Shown one piece after another: positions 35,528 through 56,528 of a DNA stretch of 57,827 nt. The stretch is from Candidatus Planktophila sp. (GTDB lineage: Bacteria > Actinomycetota > Actinomycetes > Nanopelagicales > Nanopelagicaceae). The position numbers and the translations under genes are program-made. The stretch spans positions 1 to 57,827 of the forward strand of contig JAFMBT010000008.1 in assembly GCA_017858325.1 (NCBI GenBank), read 5' to 3'. Below the pieces are notes generated by a model, which was not told the origin of the DNA, made no database searches, and worked only from the letters and a program-made list of their open reading frames with translations. Numbering within the stretch: the stretch's first letter is position 1; the number at the start of each line of letters is the position of its first letter.

Positions 35528-37333
35528 TTAGGAAAGAACAAAATACGGGAACTCAATATCCACGATGTTCCCATTCGGGTGTAGATGGGTAATTTTCCAC
35601 GTTCCGCCAGCAGATGTAATCGGTGCCAAACCTATCCCGCCACTTCGAATAACTGCATCTTTCATTCCATCATCCCGGCAACAGATTCGGATCGACCATA
35701 AGGACTCCCTACCTATTTCCTCGTTCAACTCAATTTCTATGGTCACACTTCGAGCATTAGCATGTCGATTAGCATTCGCTATTAATTCCTGACAAATAGC
35801 TGAAAGCGATATTTGTGGCAGCTTGAATTTGTCCAACTCTACGAGCCTCGGAGAAATCTTATATTCGACCTCGATGAGTCCGCGCCAATATTCAACAATT
35901 TTCTCTATTTCGTCAAGTACATCCCTTTTGTCATCATTATTTGCCTGAAGAAGGGAGAGCAATTCAGATTCTATATTCTGCATACTTGGTATCACTTTGT
36001 TTTGCAGGAAGTCAGTTTGAGTAAACTGAGCATTGTCATTCTTGATAGAGTAATCCCTTAACATGAGTGTTATCGCAGCTAAGCGCCCAATCACTGGTCC
36101 ATGCATAACCTCTGAGACTTTTTTCCGTAGTGTATTTAGATCTGAATTAATAGCAACATATTCACTTTGATTTTTTGCAATTTCAGACTCGAGTTCACGT
36201 GCTTCTTCATCAGCTTCAGCAACTAATTGCGAAAAAATTCCAGAAACTAAAATTATTATTCCTATTCCAATACTGGTTAGTATCGTCTCGGTGATGGTCT
36301 GGGTTTTGGTACAGGACAGGCCGGGCGAATTGGAGATGAAGACCCAAATGGAGGAGGCAGAAAAAATCACGAACAGGGTTAAATAAGTAGGTCTTGACGA
36401 ATGTGATAAAAAGTTGGTGCGACTGAGTAAGTTTGCGAGTGCAAGTATTATAAGAAGGATGGCATTCATTAGTAGATTTCGCGGCCTACAATCACCCTCT
36501 TCAATTGTGATCAATATTATGAAGAGTACAACTGCAGCAAGGTAGCTAGGTGGCTGGATTGATTTTATGACATCTCTCAGTAGACTCCACGTTTGTTCGG
36601 TTTTTTTCACTCTTAGTGAGAAAACTTCATTGACTCGCGATCTCGTCTTTTCCTTGACTGCGTACTGATGACTAATTTCTCGAATTGGTTCAATTGCCAA
36701 CGCTTGAACTTGCTGAGAGACTTCATGAAATTGAATTGGTTTCTGGCTCTCGGCGAGGGTTCGAATTGATTTTTCAATATCATGCAGTGCGGGAATAATT
36801 CGGGTCTCAAGAATCTCTTTTAGTTTAAATCGCTCGTCATTATATTTTCGTCTTAAGTCATCAAGATTCGTGATAGACCGGTCAAATCGAGCCTCCTGGG
36901 TTTGGTAGTTGGCTAATAAATTTTGAACGGCAATTTTTACATAAGCAGTTGTGGAGAATGCAATAACAATAAATTCGATATTTATCAGTACTGCTAGGAA
37001 CAACTCATTTGGAGTAGCTGCTTGGCCTGAAAAAAGGACTCTGAAAAATACCCCATCTATTACGCCCATAAGTATGTACGTTCCAAGAGTATGGCGAACG
37101 GAGGACTTATTTGGTTCTGTGAGGATTTTCCTATGCGCGAAGTAAAAAGGGACGAGTCCAATAGTCGGACCCAACAATGCGAAGATGGTTACATATAGGA
37201 AATTTGTACCTTGATTATAATTTCTTGCAAATGAGAGCAAGACATGTAAGGGGTATACCAACCAGAAGATCTGAAAACTCAATGAGCGAGGGTCTCGCCA
37301 AGTGGCGAGCAGTCGATTTTTCTCAGCGGACAA
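35528..37333 (-). CDS. Unusual multi-pass membrane histidine kinase
   Basis: A protein of about 601 residues. It has a four-helix membrane module (about residues 10-135), a long coiled coil, a second membrane module of about four helices (about 260-380), another coiled coil, a histidine box EVMHGPVIGRLAAI near residue 420, and a C-terminal HATPase domain with QELIANANRHANA, DDGM and GGIGLAPI. The segments RIIPALHDIEKSI and KVIPSMQNIESEL suggest an internal duplication. I place the start at TTG 37333, which overlaps the regulator stop and has AAGG about eight bases upstream; an ATG at 37411 would overlap the regulator by 89 bases. Codon use looks A/T-richer than the left half. Confidence 0.78.
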   Translation of the reverse strand: MSAEKNRLLATWRDPRSLSFQIFWLVYPLHVLLSFARNYNQGTNFLYVTIFALLGPTIGLVPFYFAHRKILTEPNKSSVRHTLGTYILMGVIDGVFFRVLFSGQAATPNELFLAVLINIEFIVIAFSTTAYVKIAVQNLLANYQTQEARFDRSITNLDDLRRKYNDERFKLKEILETRIIPALHDIEKSIRTLAESQKPIQFHEVSQQVQALAIEPIREISHQYAVKEKTRSRVNEVFSLRVKKTEQTWSLLRDVIKSIQPPSYLAAVVLFIILITIEEGDCRPRNLLMNAILLIILALANLLSRTNFLSHSSRPTYLTLFVIFSASSIWVFISNSPGLSCTKTQTITETILTSIGIGIIILVSGIFSQLVAEADEEARELESEIAKNQSEYVAINSDLNTLRKKVSEVMHGPVIGRLAAITLMLRDYSIKNDNAQFTQTDFLQNKVIPSMQNIESELLSLLQANNDDKRDVLDEIEKIVEYWRGLIEVEYKISPRLVELDKFKLPQISLSAICQELIANANRHANARSVTIEIELNEEIGRESLWSIRICCRDDGMKDAVIRSGGIGLAPITSAGGTWKITHLHPNGNIVDIEFPYFVLS

Positions 37334-37988
37334 CGATTTTCCCTTGATGCCACAAGGACACCGCCATAACACGTGAATTTGTGAGGCTATCAGATTCGAT
37401 TCCCAGTGCATGAACTGTTCTTTGGACTAGGGCCTCGGCGGCTCGTAGAGTTGTTCTCCGATGCTCTGCAATTCCGGCATTAGATAATCCCTGCGCCATT
37501 AGCCAGAGAATTTCAGCTTGATTCGGTGTTAACGTGATTGTATTTTCAGAACTTAGAGAGACTGTTTGCTTTGAGTTATCTGCACTCTCGATCGATTTCT
37601 CAATTGATTTTTTCAGGAGAGAGGTCGATTCCAGTTCTGACTTGACTAAGTAAATTGTTGATTGTGGTAATCGACCAGAAACTCCTGTTGCTAACTCTGG
37701 TGAGGCGTGTGATGAGAGTGCAACTTGTCCAATCCACGGGAAATCCCGATCCACGCGAATGAGGAAGTCTGAGCCATTGGGCCCACTTCCTAAATTCAAA
37801 TCCACCAAGACAGCATTGGGTTCAAATTGAAGGAGCAGATCCAGCGCTTGACTTACATTTGCAGCGCTCTCAACAATGAAGCCGGTGCTTCGCAGATTTT
37901 CAGAGAGCATCGTGCGGGTAAAGTCATCATCCTCGAGTACTAAAACCCTAGCTTTAAATGTGCCGGCCCGCAGGGTGTTTAGTTCCAT
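37323..37988 (-). CDS. LuxR/NarL-type response regulator
   Basis: A 221-residue regulator. The receiver domain (about 14-130) has acidic LVLEDDDFTR, phospho-acceptor VLVDLNLG, VALSSHAS and YLVKSE with the conserved lysine. A C-terminal helix-turn-helix (about 155-210) reads LTPNQAEILWLMAQGLSNAG and RTTLRAAEALVQRTVHALGI, resembling LuxR/GerE but somewhat diverged. It is followed by the overlapping kinase gene. TAGGCT six bases before its ATG indicates its own leaderless promoter. By position it probably controls the adjacent surface-protein genes (inference). Confidence 0.85.
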   Translation of the reverse strand: MELNTLRAGTFKARVLVLEDDDFTRTMLSENLRSTGFIVESAANVSQALDLLLQFEPNAVLVDLNLGSGPNGSDFLIRVDRDFPWIGQVALSSHASPELATGVSGRLPQSTIYLVKSELESTSLLKKSIEKSIESADNSKQTVSLSSENTITLTPNQAEILWLMAQGLSNAGIAEHRRTTLRAAEALVQRTVHALGIESDSLTNSRVMAVSLWHQGKIVVR

Positions 37989-37994
37989 AGAATG

Positions 37995-38000
37995 AGCCTA
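37995..38000 (-). promoter_or_regulatory. -10 element TAGGCT, leaderless promoter of the two-component genes
   Basis: On the minus strand TAGGCT is followed by six bases and ATG at 37988, so regulator and kinase can be transcribed apart from the upstream surface operon. Confidence 0.5.
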
Positions 38001-38077
38001 CTTGTGGCTTTGAACTCGTGGAATATGCAACCGCTCATCGCGAATTTCTATCTACGGTTTTCGCGTTGTTCAAGCCC

Positions 38078-38428
38078 TCAGAGGCCTACAAAGCCAATTA
38101 TGGAGCCCAGGAAGGGGATTATGAAGAGAACTTCTCCTTTGAGTGCTTCCCTGGAGATAACTTCTGTGGTCGAGCCATTGTTTGCAGAGACGCTATTTTC
38201 CTCTAGTGAAGAAATGACTCCGAGCACGGGAGTATTATCTAAATCTAGCGACTCATACATTACTTTATCGCCAACTAATACGTCGTTACCATTTTTGAAA
38301 ATCACTACACTAGATTGAGCGCTACCGAGGGCATGGCTTAAGCCGACTTCGGGATGTGATATTCGCACTCCTAGGGCGGTTGCGGAAAGGATGAGTGCAA
38401 GAAGCACAAGGGAAATTTTCTTAGCCAC
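38078..38428 (-). CDS. Small membrane protein resembling a signal peptidase domain without catalytic residues
   Basis: A 116-residue protein with an N-terminal signal/anchor helix (about 4-20), an extracytoplasmic domain, and a C-terminal helix. The segment VLVGDKVMYES, then PVLGVISS and GEVLFIIPFLGSIIGF parallels the ADIGEVITYQ, SPVGIFSH and GVLIFTIPFIGKIL parts of the SipW-type peptidase at 41813-42550. The Ser-Met-Glu-Pro and His motifs are absent, so it cannot be a peptidase by itself. It is the last gene of the unit that starts at the peptidase, 11 bases after the preceding gene. It may be an accessory or decoy subunit. Confidence 0.65.
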   Translation of the reverse strand: MAKKISLVLLALILSATALGVRISHPEVGLSHALGSAQSSVVIFKNGNDVLVGDKVMYESLDLDNTPVLGVISSLEENSVSANNGSTTEVISREALKGEVLFIIPFLGSIIGFVGL

Positions 38429-38439
38429 TCTGTCCTCCC

Positions 38440-39111
38440 TTAACGACCTGCACTCCGCGAGCGCGGTGTGGACTTTTTCTTGTTTTTTGAATTGGTAGGT
38501 TTTGCTCGGGTAGGAGTGCGCTGAGCCTGTCGTGGTTTCTTACCTGAGTTTATCAGACCGGCCTCTGAACTCTTGGGTAGGCTTGACTCAATCTTACTTT
38601 TGGCAATGATTGATGTGAGCCATTCAGAGATATCCGTATCCGAGTCAGGGCTTTCTGCGGATATACCTCGACCTCCCTGCAACAATCTAGGTCGGGGCAC
38701 CCTTTGATAAAGGGGAAGAAGTCTTGAGATGGAAAAGCGGAGAATCAAGCCTCGCGCAGTCGCAAAGAGCAGAGTCGAGGCGTGAAAAAATCGTCTCAAG
38801 AAAGCCTGCAGGCGATTAAGGAGCGATCTGGGCAGAGATGCATTCGATGTACTCTCCTGAGCATCTGATGCGGATGCACCTTCAACCGGTGCCAGAGATT
38901 CCGCCTGTGATACTCCAAGCATGAGACGAGAGGTGCGTGAATCTGGTCTTCCGGTTCCGCGCCAAGTTGCAACTTCAATAACGCTTCCAGCAGCCATATT
39001 TCCCAATACTAATTTTTGTCCATCTGGCAGATCAATCACCAATGGCGAATCCGAAGGAGGCATCGGTAATCTAGAGAGCGCCAGTTGGTCGCGATCGTCA
39101 TCTTTACTCAT
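38440..39111 (-). CDS. Hypothetical protein with basic low-complexity tail
   Basis: A 223-residue protein I do not recognise. Residues about 20-65 (LVIDLPDGQKLVLGNMAAG, then VIEVATWRG) form a compact beta-like stretch starting after a charged N-terminus. A central Arg/Leu-rich segment (about 95-140, FHASTLLFATARGLIL) could be amphipathic or membrane-touching. The last 40 residues are Lys/Arg/Ser/Pro-rich and probably disordered. It has no signal peptide, so it is likely cytoplasmic or at the inner membrane face. It overlaps the collagen-like gene by eight bases, so it belongs to the same operon. Confidence 0.6.
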   Translation of the reverse strand: MSKDDDRDQLALSRLPMPPSDSPLVIDLPDGQKLVLGNMAAGSVIEVATWRGTGRPDSRTSRLMLGVSQAESLAPVEGASASDAQESTSNASLPRSLLNRLQAFLRRFFHASTLLFATARGLILRFSISRLLPLYQRVPRPRLLQGGRGISAESPDSDTDISEWLTSIIAKSKIESSLPKSSEAGLINSGKKPRQAQRTPTRAKPTNSKNKKKSTPRSRSAGR

Positions 39112-40228
39112 CTGTCTCCTCTATCGCGAAGCCAAGAGTACCGTCAATATCCATAGGGCTGAGTTGACTCAAAGTTGCGATATTAACTTCAGTGGCCCAG
39201 TCATCCTCTGGAGATGTTGCTATGCATGGCGCTGTAGAGCCGATGGTAGCTGTTACATCACCATCGCTATTTGGACTAGTGACGTTCACGCCTGCCACCA
39301 AGTCGATGGTGCAACTGACCACCCCACCAAAGACATACTGGCCAGCCCGCCCCGCGACGCCCTGAAGACAATTTGAATCTAGCGCAGCGCTTAGGTCGCA
39401 TGAGCCACTGAGCTCTTTGATTTGTAGGTACGTTGTCAGCGCGAAGGTGGTGGAAGCGCTCAAACAGGTTTGACTGAGCTCTGAGACGACAATTGAGGAC
39501 ATTGCAAAGCCTGAGTTGGGCGTAAAGGCGTGATTGAGTTTGATTTTTACCGAGTTATCACAGACGTTGGTAATTATCTTACCGCCGATCGTTACAGTGT
39601 TTGTCTCTGAGGTGCCATTGAGCCCATCTTTACCATCTTTACCAGCGACTCCATCTTTACCAGCGACACCATCTTTACCATCGACACCATCACGGCCATC
39701 ACGACCATCACGGCCATCACGGCCATCGACGCCGTTGCAGAGATAGGAAGTTTGAACAATTGGATAAGTCTTGATTTCCAATCCTCCATTGACACAATTT
39801 AGATTCCCCTTGGCCAAAGGAAGTACTGTGACACCTGAACCATCTGCACCGTCGACACCATCTTCACCGTTACAGATGAAGAACTGCTCTGGAGTGGGAT
39901 ATGAATCCAGCTGCATTCCTCCTGTTGGGCAATTCGGATCAGAAAGTGCGAGACCCACCACCTTTACTCCTGCGCCATCAATACCGTTGATACCATCTAT
40001 TCCATCGATACCGTTAATACCATCTATTCCATCTCGACCTATGACGCCATCTTTGCCAGGTTCACCTTTAAGCAAGGTCAGAACTTGGTTGAGATCTGTA
40101 TCTTTGAGTTCGACATCTCCCAGAAAAAAGTTTTGGACAGTATTAGTATCAGTTGCAGCATAGGCAACCCCAATTCCTGGGAGGGTGAAGATGAGAAATC
40201 CGATGACCCATCGCTTCAATGTATTCAT
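39104..40228 (-). CDS. Collagen-like Gly-X-Y repeat surface protein
   Basis: A 374-residue exported protein with a signal peptide (about 1-25). Three collagen-like blocks follow: about residues 54-86 (11 triplets such as GID, GIN), 122-133 and 168-206 (GRD, GKD, GVA). Between them lie two copies of a cysteine motif, C-x-x-GG...CNG, typical of DUF7151-like linkers in bacterial collagens. The C-terminal domain starts near residue 220 with CDNSVKIKL and has a second cysteine 33 positions on, the same core as the small YGQG proteins encoded at 42613, 43276 and 55950. It overlaps both neighbours by a few bases. Confidence 0.8.
   Translation of the reverse strand: MNTLKRWVIGFLIFTLPGIGVAYAATDTNTVQNFFLGDVELKDTDLNQVLTLLKGEPGKDGVIGRDGIDGINGIDGIDGINGIDGAGVKVVGLALSDPNCPTGGMQLDSYPTPEQFFICNGEDGVDGADGSGVTVLPLAKGNLNCVNGGLEIKTYPIVQTSYLCNGVDGRDGRDGRDGRDGVDGKDGVAGKDGVAGKDGKDGLNGTSETNTVTIGGKIITNVCDNSVKIKLNHAFTPNSGFAMSSIVVSELSQTCLSASTTFALTTYLQIKELSGSCDLSAALDSNCLQGVAGRAGQYVFGGVVSCTIDLVAGVNVTSPNSDGDVTATIGSTAPCIATSPEDDWATEVNIATLSQLSPMDIDGTLGFAIEETDE
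39620..39745. repeat. Nine-base tandem repeats coding collagen triplets
   Basis: Near-perfect repeats of CATCTTTAC and CATCACGGC type (plus-strand reading) encode Gly-Lys-Asp, Gly-Val-Ala and Gly-Arg-Asp triplets. A shorter similar array lies at about 39965-40060. Both are likely to vary in copy number between strains. Confidence 0.75.
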
Positions 40229-41820
40229 TGGGTCAAGACCTTTTCCTCACCTTGGATCTTTTCTTTGGGCTGCGCCTGTAACGTTTTCTCACCGGAGACG
40301 ATGAGGACGGAGTACATTGAATGTAAAATCAGTGGAATCGAACCAGCCGCAAGAAAGAGCATTGCTTTCTGCTGTGATTCCATCGCTAAGTTTTGAGTGC
40401 CATAAAATATAGCGAGAGTGGTAGCGGCCAGTAGTAGCGTTTCAATAATAATATTGCGCCTAAATCTTGGTAGAGGAAGGCGAGAAAATTCTGGGAAGAT
40501 CACGAATAGCGTGAAAAAAGGGAAAGAAAGTAGAATCGCCCCGTAGGCAGAGGTGGAGAATGTGTTACTCCAAACGTAAATGACTGCAAAGAATGCTGCG
40601 GCTAGGGTGAAGGCAAATCCAGGTGACACAACTCTAATTACCTCAATCTCATGAAGAGAATGGGTCTCTGGCTCAGAGTCGAGACCAGCTTTTGGCCTAA
40701 GGCCTAATTCGGCTAAGTATTTAATAAATATGAGTGCACCAATTGCGGTCGCGAGTGGCCAGCGCATCACCGGGGTAGAGGTGACCGTAATCGAGAGTGA
40801 ATCTGTCGCAATCATCAACGCCACAACTAAAAGAATAGAAAATATTGAGCCTATGAAATTGGCAAGAGTTTGAGAGAGTACAGAAGAGTTATTTTCTCTC
40901 CCCTTTGAGAAATCTTTAGGTAGCGTTAGGGAGATAAGGGCTGCAATAAGGGCTGGCGCATACCAGATTGCTGTAAAGGCGATGAGCAAGAGAAATGTTC
41001 TCAGATTATTAACATTTCCAAAAGCGATGTAGACAAGAGCAAATCCAAGAGCCGTAGCCAATCCACTAGTGGCATCTATTGCACCGATAGCTGAAGCGGC
41101 CAAGATAAGCGCTAGCGGCAGGAGAGGAATGAGGTGCTTGTCTTGCGTGCTGAGGGCGATGAAAATCCCAAAGACGAGCGAGAGCCACGGCAAGAGTGAC
41201 CAAATAAGGGTTGAGACCTTATGAAGTATCTCAGCATCACGCATCATAAGAAAACGCATCAATGTCTCTCCTTGAGACACTTGTCGCTTTCGTCTAAACC
41301 GATAAAGCAAATTTCTACTCTCAACGGCTTTGCGAGTCTCAAACCCTATGCGCCGATACTTTCCGCTCCTAATGACCGAGAAGGCAGAAGCAAGAATTGC
41401 AAAGAGTACTAAGAGCAATTTTAAATCTGGCGGTATTTGCGCTATCTGGTAAAAAGTTCTCTCGTTTACACGAACTGCTGCGATGATATCCAAGCCAGAA
41501 GTCGAACGATCACTTTGAATTGTGTATGCGCCCAATGGGAGATCATTGGGAAGGAAAATGGAGTAGATGTTGAAACCCTGAGTTTCAGAGTTGCGACCTT
41601 TGAAATTAAGGGGAGGCAACCCTTCTCCCACGAGTTGAATCTGCCAATTTGCCGCAGTGGTTGGACCACCCAAGATAACAAATTGTTCCTTGCCTCTCTC
41701 CCATGTGAGGAATGGAATATCAACTGCTTGTGCGCGTGCCGGAGCTGCAGCCAGTGCAAAGAGAGAGGCAGAGACGACGGCCAAGAGAATTGAGATAATT
41801 TTGAGAGGGGCTCTAGTCAC
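40225..41820 (-). CDS. Polytopic membrane protein with N-terminal extracytoplasmic domain
   Basis: A 531-residue protein not recognised as a known family. A signal peptide (about 1-30, ending ARAQA) is followed by a beta-type ectodomain of about 100 residues containing WQIQLVGEGLPPL and LPLGAYTIQSD. About eleven transmembrane helices then follow from residue 135 to 510, and a charged cytoplasmic tail ends the protein. It overlaps the signal peptidase gene by eight bases and the collagen-like gene by four, so it is translated with them. A role as exporter, assembly platform or glycosylation factor for the surface proteins is possible but only inferred. Confidence 0.7.
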   Translation of the reverse strand: MTRAPLKIISILLAVVSASLFALAAAPARAQAVDIPFLTWERGKEQFVILGGPTTAANWQIQLVGEGLPPLNFKGRNSETQGFNIYSIFLPNDLPLGAYTIQSDRSTSGLDIIAAVRVNERTFYQIAQIPPDLKLLLVLFAILASAFSVIRSGKYRRIGFETRKAVESRNLLYRFRRKRQVSQGETLMRFLMMRDAEILHKVSTLIWSLLPWLSLVFGIFIALSTQDKHLIPLLPLALILAASAIGAIDATSGLATALGFALVYIAFGNVNNLRTFLLLIAFTAIWYAPALIAALISLTLPKDFSKGRENNSSVLSQTLANFIGSIFSILLVVALMIATDSLSITVTSTPVMRWPLATAIGALIFIKYLAELGLRPKAGLDSEPETHSLHEIEVIRVVSPGFAFTLAAAFFAVIYVWSNTFSTSAYGAILLSFPFFTLFVIFPEFSRLPLPRFRRNIIIETLLLAATTLAIFYGTQNLAMESQQKAMLFLAAGSIPLILHSMYSVLIVSGEKTLQAQPKEKIQGEEKVLTQ

Positions 41821-42550
41821 GCGAGTTAGCCCTTAATACATCTAGAAGAAACCAAATTCCAATGATTATAGGAATTACTGTGAAGAGAAATTGCCTGGAG
41901 AGAATTTTACCGATAAATGGAATAGTAAAGATGAGTACTCCAAGAACGTCACTGCCCTGGGGCTTTTGCACATCAGGTGCTGGGTTGTTATCACCTTTAA
42001 CAAGCCAGCCATTCTCTCGGCTCCCACCGATAATTCGGTGGGAGAAAATTCCAACAGGGGAGCCATCGAAGCGTCGGGCTTGATAGGTGATTACTTCGCC
42101 AATGTCAGCAGGAATTCTCTGCGGATTAGCGGAGATGATAATGTCACCGGGAGAGATCGCGGGCTCCATTGATCCAGTCAACACGATTCGCGCCTTGATA
42201 TACCCGGTCGCTGAGAGCCCAGCAAAAGTAAGCATAAAAATTGTCAAGGCGTAGCCAAAAACGGTAACAATTTTAGCAAGGTCGCGTCTTCGCTTTGTTA
42301 CACCGTCCTGCACTCTCTCAGGAGGAGCATCTACAAAATATTTAGCATCGGAGCGCACTATTTGTTGAGGGGTAACTAAATAAGTTTCAACAGAGTGCAT
42401 ATTTGAGATCGTGATTAAAACATTGGAATCTAGAGTTCTAGGGGTATTATAAATTGCGAGCGAGCCTCTCTGCTCTAGTTCAATCTCACAGTAATTAAGA
42501 CCCAAAGAGCCAGAAGAGAGTTCCGTGGAGTGAAGATCTCTCTGGCTCAT
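41813..42550 (-). CDS. SipW/ER-type signal peptidase I (S26B, Ser/His)
   Basis: A 245-residue membrane peptidase. After an unusual 85-residue N-terminal region and one helix (about 93-113), the nucleophile is in TGSMEPAISPGD near residue 125 and the second catalytic residue is His in GIFSHRIIGG, followed by LVKGDNN. Use of His instead of Lys marks the ER/archaeal/SipW type rather than ordinary LepB. A second helix near the C-terminus follows IPFIGKIL. In Bacillus SipW processes TasA-type fibre proteins; here the small YGQG proteins just upstream are obvious candidate substrates. It heads the operon running to 38078. Confidence 0.88.
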   Translation of the reverse strand: MSQRDLHSTELSSGSLGLNYCEIELEQRGSLAIYNTPRTLDSNVLITISNMHSVETYLVTPQQIVRSDAKYFVDAPPERVQDGVTKRRRDLAKIVTVFGYALTIFMLTFAGLSATGYIKARIVLTGSMEPAISPGDIIISANPQRIPADIGEVITYQARRFDGSPVGIFSHRIIGGSRENGWLVKGDNNPAPDVQKPQGSDVLGVLIFTIPFIGKILSRQFLFTVIPIIIGIWFLLDVLRANSRD

Positions 42551-42612
42551 AGGGTTTTACTTCTTCCTTTAGGGCACGTGTTACGGGTTACATCAACTTC
42601 AGTGATAGGGAT

Positions 42613-43248
42613 TTAAGAAGATGTATCTTGAGATTCAACAGTAATGACTGCAAATGATCCAGCATCTGCAAGGTTAGCTGGTGTAGCAGCATCCCAAAGA
42701 ATTTTAAAACCAGTTGCAAGCGGAACAAATTGTGCGCCAGTTCCACAATCTGTCAAATTACCTTGGATTGCGCTAGCTGAGTAACCAGTAATATTTGCTC
42801 GACAAGCGAATATGTCAGTCGCACCGTTTTCAAAGAGTTTCACCGCGGTGTTGTCTGAATTACCATAGGCGGTAAATTTAAAGGTCTTTCCTATGCAATT
42901 ACCTAGCCCTGTTGAAGTGCTTGCGGTACGCGTATCAAGAGCGGTAATCGAAAGTAAACGGAATGCGCGAAGGCTAGGGTCAGCATTATTGACAAACTGG
43001 TTCTCGGGAATAATAACTACCGAGTCGCTACAAGTGACGGTAGAGCTCACACCTTGACCATATTCGAGCGAGGTGTTGCTATTGATTGTGATCGTCGCCG
43101 CGAAGGTTGATCCAATCGCGGCAACAAATAACCCTGCCGCCAATATGCTGACGTAGCCAGCACGGCCTCGTCTGCCTTTTGGGCTTTGACCTGAGTCAAA
43201 TTTTAATATCTCCACGATACTCACTTCTTTCTCTCTCTCTGAGGCCAC
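42613..43248 (-). CDS. Small exported YGQG-motif protein (paralogue A)
   Basis: A 211-residue protein. A basic stretch GRRGRAG precedes a hydrophobic segment (about 31-50) ending GSTFAAT, which looks like a SipW-type signal. The mature part opens with SLEYGQGVSSTVTC, then a beta-rich body with a second cysteine in GNCIGKTFKF, and ends ITVESQDTSS. Two further cysteines are present. The layout matches the proteins at 43276 and 55950. The GTG at 43248 follows a GAGG sequence by five bases. It is 27 bases after paralogue B and 62 before the peptidase gene. I infer a secreted fibre or pilin-like subunit. Confidence 0.72.
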   Translation of the reverse strand: MASEREKEVSIVEILKFDSGQSPKGRRGRAGYVSILAAGLFVAAIGSTFAATITINSNTSLEYGQGVSSTVTCSDSVVIIPENQFVNNADPSLRAFRLLSITALDTRTASTSTGLGNCIGKTFKFTAYGNSDNTAVKLFENGATDIFACRANITGYSASAIQGNLTDCGTGAQFVPLATGFKILWDAATPANLADAGSFAVITVESQDTSS

Positions 43249-43275
43249 GCTGACCTCAGAAAATTGTTGTAGGCC

Positions 43276-43950: not shown

Positions 43951-43956
43951 GAGGTC

Positions 43957-43962
43957 AATTTA
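43957..43962 (-). promoter_or_regulatory. -10 element TAAATT, leaderless promoter of paralogue B
   Basis: On the minus strand TAAATT is followed by six bases and ATG at 43950. Confidence 0.4.
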
Positions 43963-44000
43963 CGCGTATAGGAGAAGGTAAAACAGGTAGTAGAGGACTC

Positions 44001-44768: not shown

Positions 44769-44774
44769 AGTTAG

Positions 44775-45622: not shown

Positions 45623-45625
45623 AGA

Positions 45626-49100: not shown

Positions 49101-52100
49101 ACTTTTTTATTCGATCATTACGGTAATCGGCGATATACCAATTCCCAGAGGAGTCAGCGACCACACCTTGGATAGTTCCGCCAAGACCAAGAGTGCTGTA
49201 TAGGTCTGTGACCGCGTCAGCGCTCTCACTTTCAAGTCGATACTGGGCTCCAGCGATGTAATTTCCCGTAGATAAAGTGTTATCGACAGATATTGGAAGC
49301 GTTCCGCTGCTGACAGTAGATGTGTCAACGCGAAACTCTGATGGGGATGGGTATATTACAGTCCGTGGATTATTAACTGCCCGTTCTGGAAGGTTAAAGG
49401 TTCTATTTAATACACTCCCATATGGAATTGTTACGCTCTGAATGTCTACTGCAGCAGATTCGGCGCTTACCTCAACGGTGACGGTAATTGAATCGCTCCT
49501 TAAATTACTATCGGTAACTTTTATTGAAAAGCTATAACTTCCGATAGAGAGTGGAGAATTAGATTGCACATTGATACTTCCTGTTGGTGTATCAACAGCG
49601 CTAACTATTTCAAAGGTATCAGAGGAGATAAGCTGAAATTGGTAGGGAGCGCTTCCACCTGTAACCGTATAGGTCTCAGATAGGAATGAGATACCATCCG
49701 GGAGAGAGTAATTTTTAACGCCAGCCCACTGCGGATTATTTGTAACCGCTGCAACTACCGTGGCTCTTACTGGTAGCGTGGCTCGCGCACCAACTTCATC
49801 TACTGCCACAACGTTAATGAAATAAGTGCCTCCTTGAATTCCGGTAGCAAATTTTAGATGGGCGCTACCGGCATCAATTGTTTCAACAAAAACGGTTTGG
49901 GTGGGGTCAGAGGTAAGTGATGGATAGAAATTACCTATTGGGATAATGGTTCTAGCCTGGGTTGAACCACTCTGATTACTCCAAGAATGATACATATTAA
50001 GATACGTATTTCCACCGACCTCATTGAGCCAGATCCTGAATGGATAGAGTTGGCCCTCTACAAGGTCGGTAATCGTGAAGGCGGTTCCTGGGTTGCTTGA
50101 ATTACAGCAACCGGCATAACCTGTCTCGATTCCATTATCCTTCTCGATTTCAAAGTAAATTGAATCATCATGATTGAAGTTGAAAACTACTTGGCCCGTA
50201 ACCGGGGCTCTATAATACCCTTCTGCATAGATCGTGAAATTATCATTACTGCTTCCCCTATAGCTTCCGCTAAAACTAGTTATATTTAAGTTTCCTAGGA
50301 CACTGGTTTCCCCAAGATATGAGATAGGTGCTGATTTAACATCACATTTAGTATTTGCCAGGCCTGTACAGTTTCGAACATAAATACTAAGTCCTGTACC
50401 TTCAATAGAGGTCGTGGATTTCCTTAAATTAGCGATAGTAAAGGTTTTAGCACCTGTTCCATTAATAGCAGTTACCGTCTCAATATGTTCTGACCCTGCC
50501 GTGATCTCAATTATATTTCTTGAGATGGCTGCTGAAATTGGGGGATTGATAACTATATTCACCGATTTAGAAGCAGATTGACCAAATTCATTGGTAACTG
50601 TGATCGTCTCCACAAAGTTCTGCACTGTTGTTGAGTCAACAATCAAATCCTGCCTAAGCGAGACCAAAACTTGCTTCGCGTTATTTGCTTCTTGGAAAGT
50701 AAGAGTTAGAAGTAAGTTTTGATGAGAATATGCGCTAATAGGTATTATCGTCGTAGATTGAGTTAAACCTCCTTGATTACTCCACGAGTAATAGAGCTTA
50801 AGATCATCATTTCCTCCCAACCCCAGAAACCATATTTTTAAGGGATAGCTCTCGCCAGCGGTAAAACCAGAGATTGAACATGTAGATGTTCCGTTAACTG
50901 TTCTTATGCATTCATTGAGAGCGTCGGTGGTGATTTGCAGTCGCGCCTTATCATCTGCTCTGAGAGAAAATATAATTGTCCCAGTGATAGGAGCAATGAA
51001 ATATCCTTCAGCGTAACCTGTTGTGGGACGGGTGCAAGCGCTGTAGATCGTATGAGTAAAGTCTAGATTGCTCGGGCTCGACATGGTAAAGCAAGGTGAA
51101 CCGCTTGGCGCTGAACTTCCTGCTAAAGCATAAATTGATTGAGTTGGATCGTTATAGAAATTCATTCTCAATCCGCTTAATAGGTTTGGACTCTGTGAGG
51201 TTGCACTCGATAGATTAACTGCACTTGAGACTGTGAAGGTTTCAACAGACGTTAAATTGCCATAGGTAAATTGCAGAACATCTGCTCCGGCTATCGTTGG
51301 AATGGAGGCAACTCGTATTGAGACCATAACTGTTACGCTCTCACCTTGTGAATCAGAGATTACTATCGACTCAAGTGTTGTACTACCCGTTGCTAAACCA
51401 CTTGCAACATTTAACGTTCCAGTCGAGGTTTCAAAGGTAATCGGAATCTCAGCTTGTCCTGAGTAAATAAGGCGTTGATATGAATAGGGGGCGATACCGC
51501 CACTAGGAGTGAAAGTGACAGTTTTAGTCTCGTTGGGATAGATTGAAATGTTGCGGCTAGGTGAGACAACGACGCTAATTCCACCATCGATTACCGCTGT
51601 AAGAGAATCTGTGCCTATCGCCCCTGATTGATCGGTAGCGGTGACTGTGGCGCGGTAACTTCCTTTTGGAGTGGTGCCGTTAAAATATAAAATAGGTTGG
51701 TTGGATTCATTTACATCTAAAAGAATTCCGGTGGCCTCTGGACTCGTAGTTAAGGAGAGAGTTTTGGACCCATTCCCACCAACAACGGAAATGGGAATTG
51801 AGTATGTGGTGTTTGTCGCTACGGTAACCGCTGATTCACCCAAGTTAAGAGCAACGGGTGGATTCACATCGATTCTGATAGATAATCTATCTATCGACGA
51901 TGATTGATCTGTAACGGTTATAGTATCAAAATAGGTGGCAGCGGTAACCGAATCAAGAGCACTCAATGTGGGTGCTACCCGCAAAGTTACAGTGGCGCTA
52001 TCTACGGCGATAAGAGTGAGTTTGCCGGATTGGGAATCTTCAAGAGCAAACGTTTTTGCGCCAGAGCCAAGAGCTGCCCTGAATGGGCCAAAGTCTCTGG

Positions 52101-55100
52101 CTATGCCTTCAGTCGTAGAGAGTGAAACCTGCTGGCCTGGAGCGGAGATATAGGCATCTTTACTTGCTGTGAAGTTATTTACAACGGTTGCTGAATCAAG
52201 GGCGGTGGAGTAGAGATGCAGCGCACCAAATCTGAATTGACCTAGGCCAGCATTGGCTGCAGTCATAGAATCGATAGCAGAGGCACCGAGAGCCAGATAA
52301 GAACGAGATGATCCAGCGCCATTTTCAATCGAGATATCACCAAGTAATTGGCCATTGATGGATGCGCTCAGCGTGGAAGTAGCTGAATCAATAGTGAAGC
52401 CAAGATAATGCCATTGGTTGAGGGAGAGTGTGGTCTCAATTTCTGCACTAACTCCATTTGGATGGCGGATCGAAAGATCTCCTGCGGCAGAGAGCTCCAT
52501 GATGGAAGTTCTCTCAGCGGTATCGCATCTATTTGTTGCACAGAGTGAGATCAGCGAACCACTACCTTGTGGGAAGATCCAGGCGAAGAGTGAGTAACTC
52601 GTTGCCGTCTCTGATATCAACGGCTGATTAGAGGCGATAAATCCATCGGCGCTCAACTGGAGATAGCTTGGGTCACCAACTTCATAGAGCGGGTCTTGCC
52701 CGGAGAATAAAAGCGCCCTTGGATTTGTTGTTGGACCACGGATCGTGGCGTTGCTGCCGCCAGCTAGATCGTTGAGGTAGGAGCCAGTTGCTAAGTAGGT
52801 GTTTGCACTGTTGATCTGCCAGTGGACAGTCAGACTCTCTTGTGAGATTGCCCCAGGCAGAGCTTGATATGTCAATCCAATCGCAGATTTCACATCAAGT
52901 GTGAGCGATGTTCTGCTGTTGAGCCCGGCATCATCTCGCAGGGTAATTGTTATTTGATAACGTCCTCGTTGCGTCTGGTTGGAAACGTTAAGTTTAAGAG
53001 ATCCATCGACAAATGCAGGTTCACCGATGGTTATCGTTGAGGTATCACCCGGTCCTGATACAGCAAGGGTCGGTATGATATCTCCGATACCGCCCATGAC
53101 TGGAATACTAAAAGTTTTTGCAGTTCCTACAGTTGCTTTCAGGTTCTGTGAAGAAGAAGTGAAACCGGCGGGTTTTCGTACCAGAATTGTGGTTGTCTCA
53201 TACCCTCGATTTCCTAGAGAGTCGGTAGCTGTGATGATTGCAGTATAAGTGTCAGCAAAGACAGTGGGGGATATACGAATAGTCGTTGTGCTCGCGGGTG
53301 TATTCCGTTGAATGGTAAATCCAGTACTCGTTGGAGATGTAACAGAGAAAGTTTTTACTCCATATCCACCAGTTGCAGTAATTGTCTCGCTATTGCCACC
53401 TAATCTCTCTGGAAAAATCTGTGTTCCAACGTCATTCATCGTAACGCCAGGACCATAAAGAGCATAAAGAGTTGTATTGCTGGTGAGTGGATAAGACCTA
53501 CCTGAGCCGTAGCAATTTTCAGGATTTACCGTGATTGCACACCATCCTAAAAATGGATCACCATCCTTGGTCGATCCATCCATAGGCGCTAAAAGCACCG
53601 TGCCATTTGGAGGTATTACCGAAGCGGGTGTTACTCCAGATCCGCCATTTAGGTTGTAATTTAATTGGAATCTAAAGATGGCAAAGAGCGTTGTTGAAGT
53701 AGTAATGCTGAACAGTGAATTGCCCTCGAGAAAATAGTTACCACCACCATCTGCGCGAGTGTTCCACCCGGCAAAATACATCCCCGTTCTTTCGAGGGCT
53801 CCTGCATTTGCTGGTGCAGTGGCCTGATTGGGTTGTCCAGGTCTGAAAGTAATCTCAGAGGGCACTTGGCCACTTGTTGCATTATTTGGCGAGAAGGTAA
53901 GTGTCACAGGTTGGCTGGCCCATCGCAGAATAACGATTCCACTTCCGCCATTGCCCGCACATGTCTCCTCGGGATCTGTACCTCCGCCACCACCACCAGT
54001 GTTTGGCTCTCCATTGGTATGAGTCGAGTTACTACAGCCGGCGCCACCACTTCTTCCCCACGAGCTTCCGCGCCCACCACCACCGACACCTGCAGAGCCA
54101 CCACCCCCAAGGAATTGAAATCTCTGGTCGAAGGTTGTTGTAAATCCTCCCGTCGCGGAATTTAAGGCGGTACCCGCGTCATTTAAATTCCACCACCGAT
54201 TGTTATTGTTATTTATTCCACCGCCACCACCACCGGCGTAAAAAACTGAACTGCCAGTTATTGTTGAAGCGACCCCTGGGCCACCCGCGCCACCAGAACC
54301 GCCGAATCCTATATTTGTCGTACCAGTTAAACCTGGGCCGCCAGCGCCTCCACCTCCACCTCCACCTTTATAGCCGGTTGAAACAGGATTTCCTCCGCCC
54401 GCACTACCTTGCCCAACCGTTCCGGCGCCCGGAAGATTTCGATCGCCACCGGTTCCACCGCCAGAGCCGCCAAGTGATCCAGCACCTGCGTAGGGGCCGC
54501 CTTTTCCACCACCGATTGCTATAAGCGTTGATCCGATAGATGAATTTGCGCCATTGGTGGCGTTGCCGTCTACCCCACCAGCGCCACCGGCACCGACAGA
54601 TATTGCAATTGTGGCCGTTTCACTGGACCGGAGTACGGACTCACCTTGAAGGAGACCACCGCCACCACCACCGCCACCGTCGGCGCCGCCACCGCCACCG
54701 GCGACGACAAGGTATGTGTAGGTAAAGGCAGGCGGGCGCACGCTATAAGAGCCAACGGCTAAAAATTCTGCGATGCAATCTGTCCCTACCTTTGTTAATT
54801 GGAGGTTATTGGTATTTGTCACATCAACACCCGGGGAAAGTGACTCTAGGGAACAAGAGCCGGAAGCATCCAGAAGCCTCTGAAATATCTGGATGTAAAA
54901 ATAAGAGGTCTCTGCGGTTTGTCCAGTGCTATCTGTTGCCGTAACTCTTACCAAGGAATTAAGAGATTCCGTTGGAGTTCCAGAGATGACGCCTGTACTC
55001 GGGTCTAATACCAATCCGCCCGGCAATGTTCCGATGTAAGAAAACGTTGGTGATGCAAAGCCGGAGTGGTCGATGGCTAGATTAAATGGCACACCTACCT

Positions 55101-55953
55101 GACCAGTAAGGCCAACAGATGGAGTGGTGATCGATCCACTTCCTGAATTCACATAAATTTGCAACTTCCAACTGCTCTTATCAAATGATCCACTACCTGC
55201 GTTAGTCCAATCACTATGTGAGGTGAGGCGGCTTCCAAAACCTAAGTCGGGATTTGAATTTCCATGTTTATTCCACGCTAAAATAGTTTGAAGATCAGTC
55301 AAGTTGTGAATTTGAAAGCTACCATGGCCGGTACCGCCAGACCTCGCGTCATCATAATCGTGAGTATTTGTTCCCGCAGGAGTGAGACCACTTGCGCCAG
55401 TGGAGTAATTTCCTGACCACATCTCTAGTCGGCATGATTTGCCTGAACCCGTGGTAACTGGGGTGGCGACAGAGCCAAATCCTGGCCAGTTCGATTCGAT
55501 AGAACAATTGGAAACATTGGTCTGGATATCGTTGCTTCCCGTGGGCAGAGCCAAGTTTGTAATCGTTGCAGCCACTGAAAGGGGCGTTGTGGTTCTTGCC
55601 TCCCACTTATCAAAAGATACCTCTGCGTAATATAGAGTGCTCGAATACCTCATCTCCATCCGATACTTGACCCTGGTGAAAGTTGCGCCAGCATTTGTTA
55701 ATTGTGCCGCGCGATCTGAAGCTCCTATGCCATAACCCGTGGCGTAGGTGAAATTTCTCTGGTAATCAGTTGTCTCATAAATCTTCTCCCAACTGCTCTC
55801 CACAGCGGCAGTAGCGCTATTCATCAAATTTTGATTCGGTGATATTGGTTGAACTAAAAGTAGAACAAGAATCGCCACCATAATTTTGGAAATTTTTGGG
55901 CGAAAAAAAATCTGTGCATATTTTTCTTTAATCACTTGAAACTTGAATTTCAT
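46132..55953 (-). CDS. Giant mosaic surface protein (3273 residues)
   Basis: An exported multidomain protein with a long signal peptide (about 1-50, ending SATAAVE). In order: an unknown N-terminal domain (to about 270), an Ig-like putative cell-surface domain (LPGGLVLDPSTGVISGTP, about 275-355), a glycine-rich domain (about 411-676), InlB/Listeria-Bacteroides repeats (AGWNTRADGGGNYF, about 683-831), cadherin-like repeats, a LamG-type lectin domain (about 1055-1265), two PA14-like domains (about 1595-1745 and 1860-2010), NHL-type propeller repeats (about 2255-2560), MBG-like repeats (about 2585-3050) and a C-terminal IPT/TIG domain (about 3190-3273). No LPXTG or C-terminal helix is present. 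Its ATG overlaps the preceding stop. Adhesion or matrix binding is likely. Confidence 0.88.
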   Translation of the reverse strand: MKFKFQVIKEKYAQIFFRPKISKIMVAILVLLLVQPISPNQNLMNSATAAVESSWEKIYETTDYQRNFTYATGYGIGASDRAAQLTNAGATFTRVKYRMEMRYSSTLYYAEVSFDKWEARTTTPLSVAATITNLALPTGSNDIQTNVSNCSIESNWPGFGSVATPVTTGSGKSCRLEMWSGNYSTGASGLTPAGTNTHDYDDARSGGTGHGSFQIHNLTDLQTILAWNKHGNSNPDLGFGSRLTSHSDWTNAGSGSFDKSSWKLQIYVNSGSGSITTPSVGLTGQVGVPFNLAIDHSGFASPTFSYIGTLPGGLVLDPSTGVISGTPTESLNSLVRVTATDSTGQTAETSYFYIQIFQRLLDASGSCSLESLSPGVDVTNTNNLQLTKVGTDCIAEFLAVGSYSVRPPAFTYTYLVVAGGGGGADGGGGGGGGLLQGESVLRSSETATIAISVGAGGAGGVDGNATNGANSSIGSTLIAIGGGKGGPYAGAGSLGGSGGGTGGDRNLPGAGTVGQGSAGGGNPVSTGYKGGGGGGGAGGPGLTGTTNIGFGGSGGAGGPGVASTITGSSVFYAGGGGGGINNNNNRWWNLNDAGTALNSATGGFTTTFDQRFQFLGGGGSAGVGGGGRGSSWGRSGGAGCSNSTHTNGEPNTGGGGGGTDPEETCAGNGGSGIVILRWASQPVTLTFSPNNATSGQVPSEITFRPGQPNQATAPANAGALERTGMYFAGWNTRADGGGNYFLEGNSLFSITTSTTLFAIFRFQLNYNLNGGSGVTPASVIPPNGTVLLAPMDGSTKDGDPFLGWCAITVNPENCYGSGRSYPLTSNTTLYALYGPGVTMNDVGTQIFPERLGGNSETITATGGYGVKTFSVTSPTSTGFTIQRNTPASTTTIRISPTVFADTYTAIITATDSLGNRGYETTTILVRKPAGFTSSSQNLKATVGTAKTFSIPVMGGIGDIIPTLAVSGPGDTSTITIGEPAFVDGSLKLNVSNQTQRGRYQITITLRDDAGLNSRTSLTLDVKSAIGLTYQALPGAISQESLTVHWQINSANTYLATGSYLNDLAGGSNATIRGPTTNPRALLFSGQDPLYEVGDPSYLQLSADGFIASNQPLISETATSYSLFAWIFPQGSGSLISLCATNRCDTAERTSIMELSAAGDLSIRHPNGVSAEIETTLSLNQWHYLGFTIDSATSTLSASINGQLLGDISIENGAGSSRSYLALGASAIDSMTAANAGLGQFRFGALHLYSTALDSATVVNNFTASKDAYISAPGQQVSLSTTEGIARDFGPFRAALGSGAKTFALEDSQSGKLTLIAVDSATVTLRVAPTLSALDSVTAATYFDTITVTDQSSSIDRLSIRIDVNPPVALNLGESAVTVATNTTYSIPISVVGGNGSKTLSLTTSPEATGILLDVNESNQPILYFNGTTPKGSYRATVTATDQSGAIGTDSLTAVIDGGISVVVSPSRNISIYPNETKTVTFTPSGGIAPYSYQRLIYSGQAEIPITFETSTGTLNVASGLATGSTTLESIVISDSQGESVTVMVSIRVASIPTIAGADVLQFTYGNLTSVETFTVSSAVNLSSATSQSPNLLSGLRMNFYNDPTQSIYALAGSSAPSGSPCFTMSSPSNLDFTHTIYSACTRPTTGYAEGYFIAPITGTIIFSLRADDKARLQITTDALNECIRTVNGTSTCSISGFTAGESYPLKIWFLGLGGNDDLKLYYSWSNQGGLTQSTTIIPISAYSHQNLLLTLTFQEANNAKQVLVSLRQDLIVDSTTVQNFVETITVTNEFGQSASKSVNIVINPPISAAISRNIIEITAGSEHIETVTAINGTGAKTFTIANLRKSTTSIEGTGLSIYVRNCTGLANTKCDVKSAPISYLGETSVLGNLNITSFSGSYRGSSNDNFTIYAEGYYRAPVTGQVVFNFNHDDSIYFEIEKDNGIETGYAGCCNSSNPGTAFTITDLVEGQLYPFRIWLNEVGGNTYLNMYHSWSNQSGSTQARTIIPIGNFYPSLTSDPTQTVFVETIDAGSAHLKFATGIQGGTYFINVVAVDEVGARATLPVRATVVAAVTNNPQWAGVKNYSLPDGISFLSETYTVTGGSAPYQFQLISSDTFEIVSAVDTPTGSINVQSNSPLSIGSYSFSIKVTDSNLRSDSITVTVEVSAESAAVDIQSVTIPYGSVLNRTFNLPERAVNNPRTVIYPSPSEFRVDTSTVSSGTLPISVDNTLSTGNYIAGAQYRLESESADAVTDLYSTLGLGGTIQGVVADSSGNWYIADYRNDRIKKYNPATGEVSVYAGSGVAADSDFTLDRLSIAINQPCRLALDNFERLLVSTCVVGRGQDNTSYLMRINLDGSVEKITGRYGSGPITGVGGLAVNGGAGYISALAVDSQGHIYIAGTGFSDQGGSRIFLVHSTTGILSELTIPTSSNGVNINVLGQQFTGIAIDKADNLFIVDVAKHRVIKYSILDQIWSHIAGATSGQSGSTTNVTALAARFNQPRTIAIDPVGDIWIGESGNNRITLIERDTNFVRAPYINIYTTYALAVAANGDLMAIRWTGGNNAYFIDRKVAHSIVTIKVEKAPVPISLDLAASVDISNLRYGSEYPIVIDLGAGVGVLDLKQMLGSTLYNSLDCNSKSISESQITCRWIPIIHGNVPLTATFTPSDSRNYSSGTKTSIFSVNRAETFTVVLKNVSTSLSENPNLFTVQGLAPLDRVNAITLRYSGISGTSYESTTAPTTPGTYQVRVDTSTSTSIFFAANSQGVTPTLTNYLGYTSGVGQWTITKAERPPVPEYPSLYVSSSETFTATVSNVLRELTYQFSSPSRNVCTVDPATGSITALIAGYCDVTLTITSDNWSDYFNYSSVTFSLAVTKSNRTVSITSLSSSALQYGQSATASIQISRARNDGVVSYTLASNSACSVTTLANFQVRILATKGSGSCTIVANISEGEDYVAASSATLVITISKADAPIFTVTPIRSLQFSGAAPASPTVTQVQGLVNGDQLLSYSFTYSGTRARGTSHTGADRPTRGGTYMATLSSVSLSGSVAITVNYNTPIYPSVPFQIFRVEQPEFSILTDVAFVGTSLPLSFSTSSPSEVAATYEIVSGGSASGCSIENGSISASSTGTCLVRTTRPADDNYEAKASPIKTIAFRELERPLATSQAAPSAQETITIGIQGGTGLNRGETTCTTGCVPTITSISPGSLAPLSLLTITGTNFSTATEIIFNRRYRTTTFQINSDTEIVVQIPAGLPAGAGSLSVVASGGTSFRFSEVIITS
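53925..54720. repeat. Glycine-codon-rich low-complexity segment of the giant gene
   Basis: Runs of CCACCACCACC and related triplets on the plus strand encode long Gly tracts on the minus strand (about residues 411-676 of the giant protein). This is a glycine-rich domain known from bacterial surface proteins and ends with the conserved GNGGSGIVILRW. Base composition and strand skew differ sharply from the neighbours. Confidence 0.8.
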
Positions 55954-56528
55954 GATGAAGCCGATTCAAGTACAATCGAATCTACGGCGCTCATAAGGGC
56001 CTTGGGATTAGAGAAAGATATAGTGAATTCGGCAAGGCTCTCGTTATAGTCAATACTCTGGCTTGAATCACCAAATTCGATGTTCTGCCCTGCCGGGTTT
56101 ACCAGCGTTACATCATCGAGTGCTGTGGAAAGTGTTGCTCCTGATGCAATTGATAAAATCACGGCGTTACCGACATTTGTATTACTTGGGGTTGCAAATA
56201 AATCTAGCGGAGAGTCACTTCCTGCCGAAAAGAGTCTGAGTCGTATGGTTGTGCCCGCACACTCACCAACGTTAAGTCCCCTGATCAGGAAACTGCCAAC
56301 GTATGAAGAGCCATTGATGGTGGCGGTCGGCTCGAGTGAAACATTGACATAGGAATCACAGGCAACAATTTGGTAGATACCTTGACCGTATTCAACGCTG
56401 GAACTGGCAAGGATATTTACTGCATAAGTAGAACCAATCACAGCAAGGATTGTGGTGAGCAAAAGTCCTAGTCTGACTTTGGGTGAATGGCGTTTTTTAT
56501 ACACAGTTGTGTCCTCGATGGCAAACAT
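55950..56528 (-). CDS. Small exported YGQG-motif protein (paralogue C)
   Basis: A 192-residue protein. A basic stretch (YKKRHSPKVRL) precedes a hydrophobic signal (about 22-40) and the mature start SVEYGQGIYQIVACDSYVNV. The second conserved cysteine is in GECAGTTIRLRL, and the chain ends IVLESASS like its paralogues. The ATG at 56528 is fixed by a GGAGGTG ribosome-binding site eight bases upstream; the in-frame GTG at 56552 lies upstream of that site. It overlaps the giant gene by four bases, so the two are produced together; it could be the fibre subunit or anchor on which the giant protein is displayed. Confidence 0.75.
   Translation of the reverse strand: MFAIEDTTVYKKRHSPKVRLGLLLTTILAVIGSTYAVNILASSSVEYGQGIYQIVACDSYVNVSLEPTATINGSSYVGSFLIRGLNVGECAGTTIRLRLFSAGSDSPLDLFATPSNTNVGNAVILSIASGATLSTALDDVTLVNPAGQNIEFGDSSQSIDYNESLAEFTISFSNPKALMSAVDSIVLESASS

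Follow-up and report, generated by a model that had tools for sequence, protein, structure and literature searches.

The Bacillus operon tapA-sipW-tasA combines a signal peptidase of the endoplasmic reticulum (ER) type with small exported proteins, and TasA polymerises through an N-terminal donor strand (PMC9674648). Subunits of the archaeal threads (Saci_0406) are predicted to be exported by Sec, cut by signal peptidase I and linked by donor-strand complementation (PMC9715654), and in Streptococcus pyogenes the signal peptidase-like protein SipA is essential for polymerisation of sortase-built pili (PMC4049620). Here we describe a 21-kb gene block from Candidatus Planktophila sp. (assembly GCA_017858325.1), carried on a 57,827-nucleotide contig (JAFMBT010000008.1, C8) that was analysed over its whole length and is called the window below; the host genome comprises 1.34 Mb in 32 contigs. 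Actinobacteria of the Nanopelagicales type are abundant in fresh waters, and members of the order are in culture (PMC10202952). We consider it fairly probable, judging from gene order and predicted folds, that with this block actinobacteria of the Candidatus Nanopelagicales type export and assemble surface fibres by a SipW-type system.

A conserved gene set around a SipW-type signal peptidase

Read along the minus strand between 44768 and 38078, the block has the order J, I, H, SipW, F, E, D and C (letters denote genes and their products; H, I and N are the small exported subunits), with a response regulator and a kinase-like gene below C. K and L occupy the plus strand, and beyond L, again on the minus strand, follow the gene of a giant protein and N (Table 1). 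Reading frames overlap at SipW/F (8 bases), F/E (4), E/D (8), N/giant (4) and kinase/regulator (89). An open reading frame (ORF) check of the window found every ORF named in the initial annotation at its coordinates, with overlaps and counts as given there; D and C do not overlap, being separated by an 11-base gap. Like the Bacillus operon, the block joins an ER-type signal peptidase to small exported proteins; unlike it, the block adds C, F, E, D, J and the K–L pair. The Bacillus operon, as described in PMC9674648, has three genes and none of C–F, J, K or L.

SipW passes the curated cut-off of TIGR02228 (60.8 versus 51.85 bits), and its profile matches human SEC11A (best, 2e-9) and SEC11C in the PDB with E values of 2e-9 to 5e-8. 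Ser127, His171, Asp187 and Asp193, which we take to be the catalytic positions, are invariant in 30 SipW sequences. By sequence SipW is an ER/archaeal-type signal peptidase; the initial annotation had named it SipW-type.

A search for SipW in the window's own genome and 59 relatives, 36 of them from the same genus, gave a strong match in six of the 36, and these six carry identical genes in identical order as far as their contigs extend. Scanning one genome per species with the D family yielded 39 named loci, including those of the six; all lie in records titled as actinobacterial metagenome-assembled genomes, and the D marker was found only in records titled as actinobacteria. By hidden Markov model (HMM) annotation SipW-F-E-D-C is unbroken in 26 of the 39 loci and the series J–subunits–SipW–F–E–D–C is complete in 13; most of the loci that lack the unbroken order are truncated at contig ends. 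Same-strand neighbours are E-D in 37 loci (gaps of at most 114 bases), F-E in 34 (all overlapping), D-C in 32 (gaps of at most 100), SipW-F in 31 (gaps of at most 3), a subunit and SipW in 28 (2168 bases apart in L050) and J and a subunit in 14, J being present in 14 of the 39 with a subunit gene next to it every time. L is found in 22 loci, K adjoining it in 21 and a contig end in the other; in 18 cases L and C converge, and in four K and J diverge.

Co-occurrence was counted in 151 genomes of the order, own genome included, among which D is carried by 19, K by 23 and subunits by 26. D and subunits are found together in 18 of the 19 D-genomes (3.3 expected, p 3e-16) and D and K in 13 (2.9 expected, p 1e-8), both p values ignoring relatedness. 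Across a phylum sample of 246 genomes K is confined to the own genome, and F to the own genome and four with weak matches.

The co-occurrence and adjacency in relatives that the initial annotation proposed to look for are thus found in the 39 named loci, the six same-genus genomes and the 151 genomes of the order. Neither random association nor membership of the small proteins in an unrelated known family describes the data, because the genes stay adjacent, the small proteins fall below every curated cut-off and D occurs only under actinobacterial titles. As judged from gene content and order, the block is a genuine conserved gene system. An accidental clustering of surface genes in a variable region would fit the patchy presence (SipW in 6/36, D in 19/151), the patchy flanking genes and the lower GC (guanine + cytosine) content inside the block (0.43-0.47 across 36-54 kb versus 0.48-0.50 across 1-33 kb). 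Order and overlaps are nevertheless retained across large divergence, the F family having 26-31% identity to the window's F; this contradicts chance for the core SipW-F-E-D-C, leaves it possible for the giant and N, and makes it a very improbable explanation of the block.

Small exported subunits with a conserved tail

I and N are 23 and 24% identical to H, and all three share a GQG motif, in keeping with their annotation as three paralogous small exported proteins. An alignment of 39 family members (A10; H, I, N and relatives) shows Gln56, Gly57, Cys64 and Cys105 to be invariant and reveals a mature N-terminal tail with the conserved motif xFGQG…CD ahead of a confidently predicted β-sandwich; the mean share of the commonest residue is 0.66 in the tail (43-66), compared with 0.40 in the body and 0.44 at positions 1-42. 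The AlphaFold2 (AF2) model of I contains such a sandwich, with block means of 84-96 for residues 91-220 (mean predicted local distance difference test score, pLDDT, 77.6; predicted template modelling score, pTM, 0.69). The conserved tail stands where TasA has its donor strand (PMC9674648), and the export, cleavage and donor-strand scheme proposed below likewise resembles that of archaeal threads; no PDB sequence match of the subunits to Saci_0406 was obtained, and a likeness in gene set, for which no search was made, was not noticed. H, I and N form a new family whose tail and modelled sandwich are compatible with donor-strand fibres and do not prove them.

None of the three reaches a curated Pfam or NCBIfam cut-off. 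At E 0.1 the 39 members match seven Pfam families, one member each; DUF2964 is the best at E 0.0017, and the TasA/camelysin type is not represented. A PDB profile search returned nothing below E 1, with one viral fusion protein at E 1.2; that none of the small proteins is a recognisable TasA, as first annotated, holds. Foldseek places adenovirus knob and tail spike first (E 0.015-0.06) and VIA antibody V domains (Z 6.2), which are taken as generic sandwich matches. Further down stand 9h8b, the cannula protein of Pyrodictium (E 0.23, rank 27), and two entries for chaperone-usher pili, all too weak to be used. TasA is not among the fold matches listed, which excludes nothing.

If H, I and N were nonetheless divergent TasA homologues, the locus would make a biofilm matrix by the tapA-sipW-tasA logic of a dedicated SipW-type peptidase beside small exported proteins. 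The family and PDB searches and the three-gene make-up of the Bacillus operon in PMC9674648 argue against this, and TasA is missing from the fold matches as just qualified; we hold the strict TasA account to be improbable. Like SipW/TasA in logic and outside TasA by sequence, the block is therefore classed as a putative novel version of the SipW-type fibre operon. The distinct extracellular matrix system originally suggested survives as a distinct and conserved gene system; the matrix is a guess, as matrix, adhesion pilus and other surface fibre cannot be separated here.

The distribution of subunit-like proteins bears on a further alternative, in which H, I and N form no polymer and are individual proteins, secreted or associated with the wall (ligand binders, say, or decoys against phages or grazers), with an export signal and a dedicated peptidase in common. 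The own genome has three family matches, all inside the block; relatives have larger proteins of about 320-600 residues that keep the tail and differ behind it, and G328 and G395 have 17 matches each, on many contigs. Such proteins, the occurrence of subunit genes without a SipW of this family and the want of a fibre fold match for the subunit in Foldseek or VIA would all suit independent proteins. They would leave unexplained the close packing in one operon with a protein of signal-peptidase fold that is like a pilus assembly factor, and a tail conserved above the body, which an export signal would not need once cleaved. We regard this alternative as unlikely, and a fibre built from the subunits as the better account. 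Many of the matches in G328 and G395 (L087-L090) are proteins of 350-600 residues encoded away from the main operon.

C is predicted to adopt a second signal-peptidase fold

The initial annotation missed C, a gene whose product has a predicted signal-peptidase fold. From an alignment of 33 sequences (A13), AF2 gave a model of C with pLDDT 79.1 and pTM 0.66. Foldseek matches it to SEC11C (7p2q, E 1.9e-3, prob 1.0), LexA (from 2e-3), SEC11A (7.6e-3) and SipA (4n31, 0.029), none under 0.001; the signal peptidase I fold is also among the Foldseek or VIA matches. VIA gives the LexA C-domain at Z 9.7, SEC11C at Z 8.5 (root-mean-square deviation 4.2, 113 residues aligned) and SipA 4n31 at Z 8.5 (deviation 2.9, 85 aligned, 18% identity); its best 30 matches are all LexA, phage repressor, UmuD or signal peptidase, at moderate Z values. 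The profile of C has a single, irrelevant PDB match (E 0.072), and hhalign of C with SipW (prob 48-51%, E 1.5e-4) is too weak taken by itself. It is thus the fold that decides the assignment, the profile comparison being insufficient, and C is predicted to have a signal-peptidase/LexA fold.

No recognisable signal-peptidase catalytic set was found in the 33 C sequences, as read from a weak profile alignment (prob 51%) in which residue 46 of C (Ser in 3/33) is paired with SipW Ser127, and a gap in C faces His171 and Asp187. C is thus likely to be inactive, though this is not certain: the strong conservation of His25 (33/33), Ser36 (28/33), Ser39 (31/33) and Lys55 (30/33) speaks against plain catalytic loss, and an activity of another kind would be possible. 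In its predicted fold, its lack of a recognisable catalytic set and its place in a surface-protein locus C resembles SipA; it differs in being smaller and in standing beside an ER-type peptidase. SipA moreover works with sortase-built pili (PMC4049620), whereas sortase is absent from the Pfam matches here, in a search that covered the locus and not the rest of the genome.

Other proteins of the conserved core

E was annotated as collagen-like, and its Gly-X-Y stretch does match PF01391 (Collagen) above cut-off (39.7 versus 27.2 bits). The C-terminal end of its family aligns with the subunit family (hhalign prob 95%, E 2e-8, 57 columns), a likeness that the initial annotation had missed and by which E may be an adaptor joining the fibre. 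Scl-type bacterial collagen-like adhesins are similar in that E is exported and carries a Gly-X-Y stretch; E is unlike them in that its C-terminal domain resembles the subunits of its own system and in scoring well under the cut-offs set for Scl models.

F has 11 hydrophobic segments, as many as the transmembrane segments first assigned to it, the first being its signal peptide. Weak F-like stretches also occur in ORFs of up to 1291 residues belonging to another family of the phylum (L074, L075 and L076, in G266, G286 and G222); these are possible distant relatives of F, on sequence grounds. D combines a strongly conserved N-terminal block, VIDLPDGQKLV...SVIEVATWRG, with a Lys/Arg-rich tail, and hydropathy shows no transmembrane segment in it. 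J is Pro-rich, with one N-terminal hydrophobic segment.

The K–L pair and its two kinds of locus

In ion-driven motors of the 5:2 type MotB carries a conserved aspartate within the membrane (PMC9389320), and in Flavobacterium the adhesin SprB is driven by GldLM motors, which run on protons (PMC8986121). L has a single membrane segment (consensus AGWMYADLFLALMVIFLATISFVP) with invariant Trp21 and Asp25. The Pfam family most often matched by L proteins is MotB_plug, with a best E of 0.059 over the full length (4 of 22 proteins) and of 0.013 for N-termini (8 of 16); all these matches are sub-threshold, and none of them comes from the L of the window. The best PDB matches of L, 8vvn ('MotB-related', E 0.35) and 8qyd (E 0.23 and 0.027), are also sub-threshold; the 8qyd chain is ZorB, and ZorAB is a further 5:2 ion-driven motor. 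L has a sub-threshold likeness to these motors (MotAB, ExbBD, GldLM) in its consensus GWMYADLFLALMVIFLA, set against W-YAD-L-x-x-A-M-M-V-x-F-L of 8qyd, and in forming a gene pair with K. Unlike them, K has two hydrophobic segments and no detectable MotA/ExbB similarity, and no OmpA-type domain occurs in the Pfam matches of the L family. No relation of L to the subunits was found.

The own genome has no match to PF01618 (MotA_ExbB), and hhalign of K with five MotA-locus ORFs gave prob 0.1, a poor control in that at least one ORF is apparently in the wrong frame; the control sets, taken from 12 loci, comprised these five and two MotB-locus ORFs, the latter set holding a wrong-frame fusion. With the Pfam search of 22 K members, where MotA_ExbB is not among the 25 of 31 families listed, these results led us to reject K as MotA/ExbB for now. 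Of the 'MotB-like pair' originally annotated there remains a MotB-plug-like segment in the L family, sub-threshold and unmatched by the window's L; K shows no detectable similarity to MotA/ExbB.

A second kind of K–L locus, missed in the initial annotation, lacks D and subunits and occurs in ten of the 151 genomes (L080-L085, L092-L095), L adjoining K in all ten. In G383, G036, G345 and G436 the pair stands beside collagen-like proteins and a conserved Lys-rich membrane protein; in G336 and G355 next to giants with lengths of at least 2,566 and at least 2,669 residues, DUF285/Big_3_5 being present in that of G355; in G371 beside the start of a large ORF at a contig end; and in G323, G394 and G363 beside a kinase and/or other secreted proteins. 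Some K–L loci without SipW also adjoin regulator-kinase pairs. On a tree of 32 K proteins the two locus kinds require three changes, compared with 8.7 in shuffles. K–L thus accompanies large surface proteins generally, not SipW as such. It might be a new membrane energy-coupling module that, in streamlined actinobacteria, reaches through the wall to drive or anchor fibres made of TasA-like, collagen-like and giant adhesive proteins, L being a MotB-like axle, K an unrelated or extremely diverged channel, and the pair being joined in SipW loci to an assembly line of active and inactive signal peptidase; we put this forward tentatively and think it doubtful.

An exchangeable giant protein and occasional regulators

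The giant matches PA14, GLEYA, NHL, He_PIG, Flg_new and Gly_rich_2 above Pfam cut-off. Similar stretches (E 1e-3 or better; 1.7e-71 to 2.8e-5) occur in six of the 39 named loci. In L056 and L068 a giant-like gene holds the same place, beside L; in the other positive loci the shared part may be repeat-type domains only. G009 encodes a different secreted giant of 1791 residues between the regulator and J (L024:10594-15969), with animal-haem-peroxidase, RTX-repeat and Ig domains. The giant was accordingly rejected as a necessary locus member: the adhesin-like protein that had been counted as part of the system is not core, and is best seen as exchangeable cargo.

The response regulator passes the PF00072 cut-off, with GerE sub-threshold; the kinase-like protein has seven hydrophobic segments, a sub-threshold HATPase_c and a UhpB-like match (E 0.0013). 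A two-component system had likewise been included in the set; the response regulator is present, divergent to J, in only seven of the 39 loci, many of which are cut by contig ends. Kinases similar to the present one lie near the regulator in G009, in G007 and in four of the 39.

A proposed route of fibre assembly

The gene comparisons establish a conserved operon J–subunits–SipW–F–E–D–C, a conserved subunit tail, an ER-type peptidase, a collagen-like E and an L–K pair. On this basis, subunits would be exported by Sec as membrane-anchored precursors, and SipW would cleave them behind the hydrophobic segment (…STFAA), freeing the tail, which would insert into the β-sandwich of the next subunit by donor-strand exchange and so build the fibre. 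C may hold or pass on subunits, as inactive SipA does in streptococcal pili; F may serve as membrane platform; E, collagen-like and ending in a subunit-like domain, may be a stalk or an adaptor; the giant may be adhesive cargo that can be exchanged. L–K would be a membrane module for a collagen-like or giant partner, perhaps supplying proton-driven force or wall anchoring, and the two-component system, where present, would set expression.

Several observations pull the other way. The fibre itself is a prediction. TasA is not matched by sequence (Pfam on 39 members, PDB profile search), and no PDB fold match of the subunit is significant (best Foldseek E 0.015, best VIA Z 6.2). Residues 1-60 of the I model are of low confidence throughout (block means 42-51), membrane segment included, and the loose tail is therefore not specific to the donor-strand idea. 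In eight of the 151 genomes subunit-like proteins occur although neither D nor a SipW-family match is present, among them G310, a single contig, and G340, with seven subunit matches; this speaks against strict dependence on this SipW, of which the tail alone is no proof. K is absent from six D-genomes, and G364 has D and K with no subunit match and a weak peptidase match only (6e-14). L069 and L071 extend beyond D with no C detected, and L070 differs in order. Every match of L to MotB-type proteins lies below curated or usual thresholds, and K has no detectable similarity to MotA/ExbB. L070, the most distant locus found, carries subunits, SipW, a further subunit-like ORF and D in changed order; its F match is weak and lies on the other strand.

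With these points weighed, some small free-living actinobacteria related to abundant lake species probably use a conserved block to export and assemble surface protein fibres. The gene set is not described in the literature searched, which took in few subscription journals and no bioRxiv preprints. A genome of 1.34 Mb still devotes a 21-kb block to surface proteins; if the fibre reading is true, it would give such bacteria a defined fibre system, provide an example, away from sortase-built pili, of fibre assembly involving a signal peptidase that is probably inactive, and perhaps reveal a new way for a walled bacterium to couple its membrane energy to surface fibres. The patchy presence suggests, as a guess, a role in contact with phages, grazers or particles.

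Gene layout and genomic setting

Table 1. Genes of the block, in window coordinates
Gene and product	Positions	Strand	Basis
HK, membrane histidine-kinase-like protein, partner of RR	35528..37411	-	7 hydrophobic segments, sub-threshold HATPase_c
RR, response regulator, LuxR-like C-terminus	37323..37988	-	PF00072 above cut-off, GerE sub-threshold
C, membrane-anchored, predicted signal-peptidase/LexA fold, candidate assembly factor	38078..38428	-	AF2, Foldseek, VIA
D, predicted cytoplasmic protein, marker gene of the system	38440..39111	-	Conserved N-terminal block, without transmembrane segment
E, collagen-like secreted protein, subunit-like C-terminal domain	39104..40228	-	PF01391, hhalign
F, polytopic membrane protein, extracellular N-terminal part, candidate platform	40225..41820	-	11 hydrophobic segments
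SipW, ER/archaeal-type signal peptidase I	41813..42550	-	TIGR02228 above cut-off
H, small exported subunit	42613..43248	-	Paralogue of I and N
I, small exported subunit, best conserved paralogue	43276..43950	-	16 relatives at 52-64% identity to I
J, Pro-rich secreted protein, operon head	44001..44768	-	One N-terminal hydrophobic segment
K, partner of L, 2 hydrophobic segments	44846..45622	+	Hydropathy
L, single-pass protein, MotB-plug-like membrane segment with invariant Asp	45626..46126	+	Sub-threshold matches
Giant, 3273-residue secreted mosaic protein, accessory and variable	46132..55953	-	PA14, GLEYA, NHL, He_PIG, Flg_new, Gly_rich_2
N, third small exported subunit	55950..56552	-	4-base overlap with giant; inner ATG at 56528 is the start in the initial annotation

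The block is flanked by genes for a tyrosine phosphatase (34929-35438) and a LysE exporter (56750-57367), both patchy in the genus: they occur in 13 and 16 of 41 genomes, respectively, with the own genome and weak matches counted. A constant flank as a way to place the locus was dropped, these neighbours being patchy themselves, and the block appears, from its sequence context, to sit in a variable genomic region. As to a mobile-element origin, searches found F in no plasmid and I in no phage, with one collection tried for each gene; promoter and terminator scans gave counts close to shuffled expectation.

Six of the 39 locus titles name Candidatus Nanopelagicales, Nanopelagicaceae or Planktophila, 26 give the phylum level only and seven name other taxa (Bifidobacterium breve four, Streptomycetaceae two, Streptomyces griseus one). 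By their isolate names, the samples are presumably of lake origin. The loci under the seven unlikely titles (L039, L045, L048, L049, L060, L065 and L071) are clearly similar to the others; some record titles are wrong, and that of L049 at least looks so.

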